Source: Rickettsiales bacterium
GTDB taxonomy: Bacteria; Pseudomonadota; Alphaproteobacteria; Rs-D84
Direction of reading: 5' to 3'
DNA: 63,367 nt
Assembly (NCBI GenBank): GCA_031266915.1
Contig: JAISAB010000017.1
Location: forward strand, 1 to 63,367
A program made the translations under genes and the position numbers. The notes under the pieces are model-generated. The model did no database searches and was not told where the DNA came from. It was given only the letters and a program-made list of their open reading frames with translations. Below, piece after piece: positions 24,617-63,367 of this stretch (position 1 is the stretch's first letter; each line of letters begins with the position of its first letter).

Positions 24617-24726
24617 GTTTAGCTCCTTCTTTAAATACAATGTTATATATAACACTTTTTTGACATTTGTCAATGAATTGTATATTTGTCTTGTGTTTTT
24701 TAAATTTCGCCTTTATAATTACTTTA

Positions 24727-25200
24727 CCGCGCAAGCGGCGATGATTCTGAATCCGTTGTGAAATAGTCGTTTTGGACTGGGGGGCGGTACCCCACAGCTC
24801 CACCATTAAAACCGCCGGCGGCGATTTTAATGGTGGAGTGAGAGTTGCGCGCGGCACAGCCGCGCAGAGTCGGAGAGTTAAAAGAGTATAAACCTCTGCA
24901 AATCTCTAACTCTTCAACTCTGATTTTGCGAAAGCAAAATCTACGCTCTGCGCGCAAAGCGCGCCATTTGGGGCTGACATAGATTCGACAGGCGATGAAA
25001 GACAAATTGGGTGAATTCGACATGGCGTCGTAAAAAGCCGAATAAAAACTGAATGGCGATAAAATCGCTGCGAACGACAACGTTCGCGTTGCATTGGCTG
25101 CTTAACCAAGCACCGGATTCGGCCGGCAATTGTTGGCTGAATCCAATTTAAGCCTATGCGGGGTCCGCCGCGAACCTGTCACAACAATCGCGGCGCTTGC
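24727..25200 (+). ncRNA. ssrA: tmRNA, circularly permuted (two-piece)
   Basis: The 3' piece comes first: GTTTTGGACTG, T-arm, then ACAGCTCCACCA ending at 24805. After a ~165-base intervening segment the 5' piece begins GGGGCTGACATAGATTCGAC (24970). It encodes the tag AANDNVRVALAA with a TAA at 25103-25105. GCAAGCG (24731) pairs with CGCTTGC (25194-25200), joining the pieces. GGGGCTG pairs with CAGCTCC as the acceptor stem. Permuted ssrA is characteristic of alphaproteobacteria. With SmpB (49456-49926) it rescues stalled ribosomes and marks their products for proteolysis. Confidence 0.93.
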
Positions 25201-60036: not shown

Positions 60037-61350
60037 TTATAATTCTAAACTTTTATCTTTTATAGCCTTTTGTATTCGTGCCAAAAAATCAGATAGTTTA
60101 ATATCTGATTCCTGTTCGCCACCTCGAAAACGCACTGAGATACTATTATCGACAACTTCTTTATCGCCAACAATTATCACGTATGGAATTTTTTGTTTGG
60201 CAGCAGCGCGAATTTGATAGCCGACCGTATTGCCATCACCGTCATATTCAGCGCGGATTCCTGCGTCTATCAGTTTTTGTTCTATCTGCTTCGCATATTC
60301 CGAATGTTTGTCGGACACTGATAAAATCTTGACCTGCACAGGCGACAGCCATACAGGCAGGTTACCGTTGCAATTTTCAAGATATACAGCCAAATAACGT
60401 TCAAGCGCGCCAAGAATAGCACGATGAATCATTATTGGGACTTGTTTTTTTCCGTCTTCGCCAACGTATGACATTCCCCACTTTTCAGGCAGATTCATAT
60501 CAAGTTGAATCGTCATCCACTGCCACTCGCGTCCGCCACAATCAATCACCTTAAAATCAATAGCCGGACCATAGAATTTTGCGCCGCCGACATCTACGTC
60601 ATAATCAATGCCTTTGTCTTTCAAGACTTGTTTGATTGATTCTTCCGCGAATTGCCATATTGGTTCATTTTCTATGTATTTGTCGCGTTTGTTTTCCAAA
60701 TCACGAACGGAAAAATAGACTTTGAATTTGTCATATCCAAAGACCTTGTGAAAGTCACGGCCGAAATCAATGACTTTATTCAATTCGTCCATAAATTGGT
60801 CTTTTCGGCAGATTATATGCGCGTCATCCTGCGTGATACAGCGCACTCGCGACATTCCGTGCAGACCGCCGGACGCTTCGTATCTATACACGCGACCAAG
60901 TTCGCAGTATTTGATAGGCAATTCCCGATAGCTGCGCGGCCCGGAATTATAAATACAGACGTGAAACGGACAACTCATCGGTTTTACATAATACGCCGTC
61001 TGTTCTGCTTTATCTTTCAGCGACATATCCATAGGCGGATACATTGCGTCAGCGAAGTGTGCAAGGTGACCGGATTTTTCAAATATCTTCTTCAACCCGA
61101 TTTCAGGCGTAAAAACATATTTATATCCATGCTTGCGATGATGTTCTTTCCAAAATGATTCAATTTCTTCGCGGATAATTGCGCCATTCGGATGCCATAA
61201 AGCTAACCCGCTGCCGACTATGTCGGGTGAGAATGAGAATAAATCAAGTTCTTTACCAAGACGGCGATGGTCGTTTTCTGGCAGACCAGATTCAATGTTA
61301 TTTTCAATTTCGTTTTTCAATTTTTTTGACCTTTTTATTATTGGAATCAT
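60037..61350 (-). CDS. thrS: Threonyl-tRNA synthetase, short form without TGS and editing domains
   Basis: A 437-residue class II synthetase for tRNA-Thr. It begins almost at the catalytic domain (HRRLGKELDLFSFSPDIVGS GLALWHPNGA). Zinc and active-site residues lie in KPMSCPFHVCIYNSGPRSYR ELP, motif 2 in GRVYRYEASGGLHGMSRVRC ITQDDAHI, and motif 3 in MIHRAILGALERYLAVYLEN. The anticodon-binding domain (VKILSVSDKHSEYAKQIEQK) is complete. The N-terminal TGS and Ser-editing domains of the ~640-residue form are absent. The start may be ATG 61350 or a TTG nearby with a better AAAAGG site. A Thr-rich leader ORF precedes it. Confidence 0.92.
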   Translation of the reverse strand: MIPIIKRSKKLKNEIENNIESGLPENDHRRLGKELDLFSFSPDIVGSGLALWHPNGAIIREEIESFWKEHHRKHGYKYVFTPEIGLKKIFEKSGHLAHFADAMYPPMDMSLKDKAEQTAYYVKPMSCPFHVCIYNSGPRSYRELPIKYCELGRVYRYEASGGLHGMSRVRCITQDDAHIICRKDQFMDELNKVIDFGRDFHKVFGYDKFKVYFSVRDLENKRDKYIENEPIWQFAEESIKQVLKDKGIDYDVDVGGAKFYGPAIDFKVIDCGGREWQWMTIQLDMNLPEKWGMSYVGEDGKKQVPIMIHRAILGALERYLAVYLENCNGNLPVWLSPVQVKILSVSDKHSEYAKQIEQKLIDAGIRAEYDGDGNTVGYQIRAAAKQKIPYVIIVGDKEVVDNSISVRFRGGEQESDIKLSDFLARIQKAIKDKSLEL

Positions 61351-61437
61351 ACCACATATATAATCCCAAGATTATTTGTTATTTACTATTATTGATATAT
61401 TCAGGCACAATCGCCAGTGGGGAAATATATAGACCGC

Positions 61438-61533
61438 CTAGGCGGTTGTGGTAGTGGTCAAAAAAGATGCAAAAGACACAACGGAAAAATTCCGACCAGA
61501 TGCAATATCAAAGATGCCTTCGTTTTTTAACAT
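61438..61533 (-). CDS. thrL-like: Threonine leader peptide of thrS
   Basis: An ORF of 31 codons beginning MLKNEGIFDIASGRNFSVVS and ending FASFLTTTTTA, that is ACC ACT ACC ACA ACC GCC TAG. Five successive threonine codons directly before a hairpin (CCGCCTAGGCGG, 61434-61445) upstream of a threonyl-tRNA synthetase gene is the pattern of ribosome-mediated attenuation: starved ribosomes stall on the Thr codons and change the fold. The promoter TTGACT-17-TATAAT lies so close that the first ATG would be nearly leaderless; an internal start is possible. Confidence 0.7.
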   Translation of the reverse strand: MLKNEGIFDIASGRNFSVVSFASFLTTTTTA

Positions 61534-61540
61534 ATTGAAC

Positions 61541-61569
61541 ATTATAAACCTGCTAATTTCAAAAGTCAA
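61541..61569 (-). promoter_or_regulatory. thrS/leader promoter
   Basis: Minus strand TTGACT and TATAAT separated by exactly 17 bases, just upstream of the Thr leader ORF. Confidence 0.8.
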
Positions 61570-61624: not shown

Positions 61625-61975
61625 AAAAGTAGGCGTGATAAAAAACCGCCGGTTGGCGTTTTTTTCGTAAATCGTAATTTGGTACTGAGTATTGGGTACT
61701 AGGTACTAAATCGCCACTGTGTCATTGCGCGGCGCAGCGAAGCAATCCAGTCATAAAATAAGCTCAATTCTATTTGCCCCCCTTTTTGAGGGGGGCTGGC
61801 GCCGTAGGCGACTGGGGGGAGCTCCCCCTCCCCTGCTTCACCCTTCGCCAAGGCTACGTGTGACAAGCCGCGGGTACCCCCCATTTTGGGGGAGAAAAAG
61901 AGAGTGTGCACCCAACGTGCGTACGACTCTGTTTCACTGGATTGCAGCGCCCTGCGGGCTCGCAATGACAACCCG
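61625..61975. repeat. Block of dispersed repeats
   Basis: Contains a terminator hairpin (AAAAAACCGCCGG...GGCGTTTTTTT), short GGTACTGAGTATTGGGTACT repeats (mirrored near 18390-18425), a GTCATTGCGCGGCGCAGCGA palindrome, and a copy of the C-rich repeat found at 20206-20310. No gene between 61570 and 62006. Confidence 0.6.
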
Positions 61976-63215: not shown

Positions 63216-63243
63216 TAAAAACCGCCAACCGGCGGTTTTTTCG
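63216..63243 (+). terminator. Terminator after rpsD
   Basis: AAAAACCGCCAACCGGCGG followed by TTTTTTCG. Confidence 0.88.
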
Positions 63244-63272
63244 TGAAATGTGATTCTTGACTCGTGATTCGT

Positions 63273-63367
63273 AAAACCAGTAGTGCATAGTGAGTAATGT
63301 TTAGTTTATAGTGCATAGTTAACTATTTCACTAATAACTAAGCACTATAAACTAAACATTACTCACT
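63273..63367. repeat. Quasi-palindrome of TAGTG-type repeats (cut by window edge)
   Basis: CCAGTAGTGCATAGTGAGTA ATGTTTAGTTTATAGTGCAT is mirrored by AATAACTAAGCACTATAAAC TAAACATTACTCACT. Confidence 0.7.

Follow-up and report, generated by a model that had tools for sequence, protein, structure and literature searches.

What does a short open reading frame (ORF) ending in a run of threonine codons do in front of a gene for threonyl-tRNA synthetase (ThrRS)? The question is raised by the minus strand of contig JAISAB010000017.1 of a Rickettsiales bacterium, analysed here over 63,367 nt (the window). A sequence-only reading of the locus had described a promoter, an ORF ending LTTTTTA and a tight palindrome ahead of the gene, and had proposed that thrS is attenuated in response to threonine. 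As a description of the DNA this is confirmed, with corrections, and the interpretation is partly supported: promoter, ORF with its five Thr codons and palindrome are all present (Table 1), and the start that had been listed, TTG 61569, is rejected as it sits within the -35 box, the plausible start being ATG 61533. That ATG lies only 7 nt 3' of the -10 box, so that the transcript would begin at or very near it and the ORF would be translated without a leader, a mode with alphaproteobacterial precedent in the leader peptide of Sinorhizobium trpL (PMC10117765). When the region was shuffled with dinucleotides preserved, a TTTTT peptide arose in any of three frames in none of 5000 shuffles and a comparable Thr-ended ORF in one of 5000; four short ORFs of the window end in at least four identical residues, and the single Thr run among them is this leader. 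Elsewhere in the window, positions 61640-61720 and 63240-63367 hold low-complexity intergenic repeats (types TACTGAGTATTGGGTACTAGGTACTA and AGTGCATAGTGAGTAATG), and an alphaproteobacterial permuted tmRNA (Rfam RF01849, RF04321) lies at 24687-25197.

Table 1. Features of the thrS2 leader region in window coordinates, in order of transcription
Feature	Position	Strand	Remarks
Sigma-70-type promoter TTGACT-17-TATAAT	61541..61569	(-)	11/12 matches; -35 box 61569-61564, spacer 17 nt, -10 box 61546-61541; equivalent boxes before the ATG in most relatives
Leader ORF, putatively leaderless, MLKNEGIFDIASGRNFSVVSFASFLTTTTTA then stop	61438..61533	(-)	ATG at 61533, 31 codons, stop TAG 61440-61438; C-terminal Thr run in 14/14 loci
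P1, hairpin CGGAA-TTT-TTCCG within the ORF	61482..61494	(-)	Covariation in relatives
Anti-SD UUUUUUGACC, 5' arm of P4, overlapping the first Thr codon	61456..61465	(-)	MFE and centroid fold
Five Thr codons ACC ACT ACC ACA ACC	61444..61458	(-)	
P2, hairpin ACCGCCTAGGCGGT, covering the fifth Thr codon and the TAG	61433..61446	(-)	Tail T-score 1.22
P3, hairpin GGC-GATTGT-GCC	61404..61415	(-)	Pairing kept in relatives with other sequences, among them TGGATT..AATCCA
3' arm of P4, GGUCAAAAAA, GG of the SD plus spacer to the start codon	61322..61331	(-)	MFE and centroid fold
thrS2, accessory ThrRS, 427 aa from the likely start TTG 61320	60037..61320	(-)	Catalytic and anticodon-binding domains only

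The downstream gene does encode a ThrRS, as the sequence-only reading held; however, it is not the housekeeping thrS but a short, editing-less and apparently horizontally acquired second gene, here called thrS2. Its product scores 493.4 bits against TIGR00418 (cut-off 383.65) and, aligned with solved ThrRS, keeps the zinc-site and Tyr462-Gly463 motifs (KPMSCP, QDDAHI, MIHR and FYGP). The SAD editing domain is absent from thrS2 and present in a longer ThrRS encoded in the same genome. TTG 61320 is likely to be the start, judging from the Shine-Dalgarno sequence (SD) AAAAAGG and alignment with the related locus L008; ATG 61350 is less likely, because L008 has no equivalent ATG and the SD suits the TTG. 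In a tree of 59 ThrRS sequences, for which the program warns of long branches, the short form makes a single clade (support 100/100) whose sister is an editing-domain ThrRS from another alphaproteobacterial family (L044), and the two together group with Bacillota, Actinomycetota and Chloroflexota sequences, not with the housekeeping ThrRS of the order. thrS2 is best read as a gene that came from a distant lineage and lost its editing domain. Nothing in it points to an antibiotic-resistant ThrRS of the ObaO type, the resistance residue Gly463 being unchanged. Two known modes of synthetase control find no counterpart: no T-box was matched in the window at the Rfam gathering score, and the operator control of Escherichia coli thrS needs the N-terminal domain of ThrRS, whereas thrS2 has no ThrRS N-terminal domains.

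Is the leader a real and lasting part of this gene? A search of 84,980 species yielded 13 thrS2 loci besides that of the window, from gut, rumen and termite metagenomes, giving 14 species-level loci in uncultured gut alphaproteobacteria; within the order the gene is sporadic (7 of 201 genomes). In two genomes thrS2 has a trpS-like neighbour, a gene for a class I tRNA synthetase of the W/Y type, on different sides (L048:5975-7015 and L049:4446-5444). The check that the sequence-only reading had proposed, for conservation of the Thr run in relatives, was run and finds a leader peptide rich in Thr codons ahead of the ThrRS gene, as in leader-peptide attenuators generally, at all 14 loci. The peptides have 31-36 residues and 4-6 Thr codons, mostly within the last 7-9 residues, and each ATG stands 6-8 nt after a -10-like box. 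In the most diverged, L054 (MRNVYD...TKTSTTA, then stop), all four helices are kept while the sequence is largely different. A covariance model of the leader (R1), used as a finder, is strong for close relatives and L045 and weak for L054 (E 0.04) and for the window locus (E 0.19), the last because that leader diverges; weak R1 matches near housekeeping thrS pointed to the housekeeping leaders described below. From these comparisons the existence and conservation of the leader are secure, and its presence at 14 of 14 loci is the strongest evidence that it is real. Short ORFs upstream of genes are common, and a non-regulatory ORF, or one coupled to thrS2 by reinitiation, might be considered here as well. 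Leader genes without regulatory codons have been discussed (PMC4833913). However, such a reading is very improbable given the constancy of the Thr run, the occurrence of unrelated Thr leaders before other thrS genes, and a distance of about 117 nt between leader stop and thrS2, which is far for reinitiation.

How, then, could the Thr run act on thrS2? The best-supported switch involves helix P4, in which part of the leader ORF is complementary to the SD of thrS2. At the window locus P4 (UUUUUUGACC with GGUCAAAAAA) has 10 bp at -12.4 kcal/mol, a value reached in 0 of 500 shuffles, and in 13 of the 14 loci (exception L048) the region of the first Thr codon is the leader site most complementary to the thrS2 SD. 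Its core pairs are retained in 13-14 of the 14 loci, and the compensatory changes seen there, A-U to G-C (window locus, L045), G-U (L055) and U-A to C-G (L054), represent few independent events. The anatomy and complementarity are thus accompanied by conservation and some covariation. When the footprint of a ribosome whose A site holds the first Thr codon is masked in the fold, the predicted cost of opening the SD falls from 7.0 to 1.0 kcal/mol at the window locus, and from 5.2-7.9 to 0.9-2.8 kcal/mol across the seven leaders, this one included, that respond to the footprint mask; in the other seven the SD is predicted to be mostly open already and masking alters little. Matched leader/SD pairs are better than permuted pairs at p = 0.04 only, and the fold of the window-locus leader has a z-score of only -1.5. 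The ACC:GGU match could in part be shared chance, given the separate conservation of SD and ACC codons. Because masking is predicted to free the SD in only half of the leaders and the permutation result is modest, the modelling supports SD sequestration well for the window locus and about half of the family, and leaves it uncertain for the other half.

The present data allow a scheme to be drawn, in which we infer the stalling, the direction of control and the action on translation. It proposes that a strong promoter would give a leaderless mRNA, the first ORF of which closes with the five-Thr run. With Thr-tRNA(Thr) plentiful, the ribosome would complete the leader and depart, and the freed anti-SD would pair with the SD and spacer of thrS2, P4 enclosing P2 and P3, so that thrS2 would remain untranslated. 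With Thr-tRNA scarce, the ribosome would stall at the Thr codons and cover the anti-SD, the SD would be released, and the spare ThrRS would be made. On this modelling thrS2 is probably made only under a shortage of charged threonine tRNA, and a threonine-sensing translational attenuator of an accessory ThrRS gene is the reading we hold to be reasonably probable.

The sequence-only reading had instead looked to the enterobacterial pheST pattern, of which the conserved Thr leader stands while SD sequestration is better supported as the output. In that alternative, P2 would act as an intrinsic terminator of low strength, and slow passage through the Thr codons would hold a ribosome over its 5' arm and allow RNA polymerase to read through, with P1 as a pause hairpin that could assist. 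P2, a perfect palindrome at the window locus, is kept in every thrS2 leader, and L044 has it as well; in most thrS2 leaders a U-rich stretch follows (TATTTTTTT a few bases past the stem in L054); housekeeping thrS leaders have a hairpin at the same place, likewise followed by a U-rich stretch. The tail T-scores, however, are 0.74-1.83 among the thrS2 relatives and 1.22 here, whereas hairpins that follow long ORFs in these sequences have a median of 2.09, and this poor U tail is why the translational switch is favoured over a terminator of the pheST type. Nor was a conserved antiterminator found among thrS2 leaders, and when the A site holds the first Thr codon, geometry would place the beginning of P2 12-17 nt downstream, at or past the ribosome edge. 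An alternative fold between GTTGTG (61482-61477) and CACAAC (61450-61445), suggested earlier, is indeed complementary here; by eye, similar pairs occur in some relatives but not in all. P1, which in most relatives reads CAGAACTT..AAGTTCTG, shows covariation in a count that leaves out the window locus, where the arm is shorter. Termination at P2 is therefore a weaker reading than SD sequestration, rather unlikely yet still alive. Of the relatives with Thr leaders the nearest, L044, shares P2 but lacks SD pairing, so that control through the SD may be secondary; in view of this and of the mostly conserved U-rich stretch, an older, P2-based mechanism is conceivable. Action at both levels, with P2 terminating some transcripts, P4 repressing those that escape and the weight varying by clade, would fit the conservation of both helices and the varying predicted stability of P4 among clades; it would be superfluous at the window locus, given a strong P4 there and a poor tail to P2, and we consider it improbable.

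Thr leaders before ThrRS genes had been expected to be unusual; in this order they are the rule. The housekeeping thrS carries a different Thr leader in 28 of 29 loci (L006, L007, L010-L029, L031-L036), near-leaderless and of the type MKKYCVFFTTTTTTPAGV, ending in a hairpin ACCCC...GGGGU formed from Thr-Pro-x-Gly-Val codons; that of the genome studied here is MRYMSAIFATTTTPFGV (G000:C1 near 99,000). An SD-pairing mode was rejected for most of these leaders, clear pairing being seen in 2 of 28 (L027 and L029); they thus provide a natural negative control that counts for the P4 model, and within one genome the output step seems not to be the same for both Thr leaders. Beyond this order, independent-looking leaders precede thrS in L110 (G288) and L044 (G238), of two other alphaproteobacterial families (MIYIAQKTTTRTTTTL and MRNFIETQINTTTGLTTTTTA, respectively). 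A general alphaproteobacterial trait is rejected: among 27 thrS loci of other families (L107-L133) L110 alone has a Thr leader, and none was seen in the other 26.

These observations may be joined in a wider proposal, that of a two-tier sensor in which the proofreading housekeeping ThrRS is served by one Thr leader and the acquired ThrRS without proofreading by another. In the latter leader the anti-SD takes in the first Thr codon, so that a starved ribosome would itself unmask the non-editing spare. We give this about as much credence as doubt. If it is true, the spare synthetase could charge tRNA without editing. The order, gut alphaproteobacteria with genomes of roughly 1 Mb, appears to have leader control of ThrRS in two different forms, one possibly translational. 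It may be asked why a silent ThrRS without proofreading is retained, to be switched on under Thr-tRNA shortage, and whether induction of thrS2 raises the mistranslation of threonine codons with serine.

Several known systems resemble parts of this arrangement. In the enterobacterial pheST attenuator a leader peptide with cognate codons likewise precedes a synthetase gene; however, it operates with a strong terminator and an antiterminator, neither of which is clear at thrS2. It has been named as a case of classical attenuation (PMC1262725). An auxiliary synthetase gene under leader-peptide attenuation is also found in trpRS1 of Streptomyces coelicolor (Vecchione and Sello 2010, as cited in PMC4787780), although control there is transcriptional and responds to Trp, whereas thrS2 is probably under translational control by Thr and has no known antibiotic link. 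The T1/T2 ThrRS pair of Anabaena likewise includes a second, stress-induced ThrRS with impaired proofreading, induced there by low zinc (PMC4787780) and here, as we suppose, through Thr codons of the leader. For the LEU element of actinobacteria, too, base pairing has been proposed between a series of control codons and the SD of the gene that follows, but the codons are for Leu, the gene is leuA and a pseudoknot is involved (PMC1262725); that source prefers control by a regulatory protein and refers to mutations of the codons that had no effect. The mycobacterial poly-cysteine short ORFs (Canestrari et al. 2020, doi 10.1111/mmi.14498), as cited in PMC9031893 and PMC13236596, are likewise leaderless with a run of codons for one amino acid, and the speed of the ribosome through the run likewise sets downstream translation; they differ in concerning Cys, mycobacteria and cysteine metabolism, as against Thr, alphaproteobacteria, an accessory ThrRS and an anti-SD overlapping the first control codon. 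Leader-peptide control of a ThrRS was not found in the freely accessible literature, though an earlier thrS case is possible, for example in the survey of aminoacyl-tRNA synthetase attenuators of Lopatovskaya 2010. The logic of attenuation is thus known from other amino acids and, as far as the accessible literature was searched, its threonine/ThrRS version is newly described here; what sets it apart from the precedents is the amino acid, the lineage, the target and an anti-SD that overlaps the first control codon.
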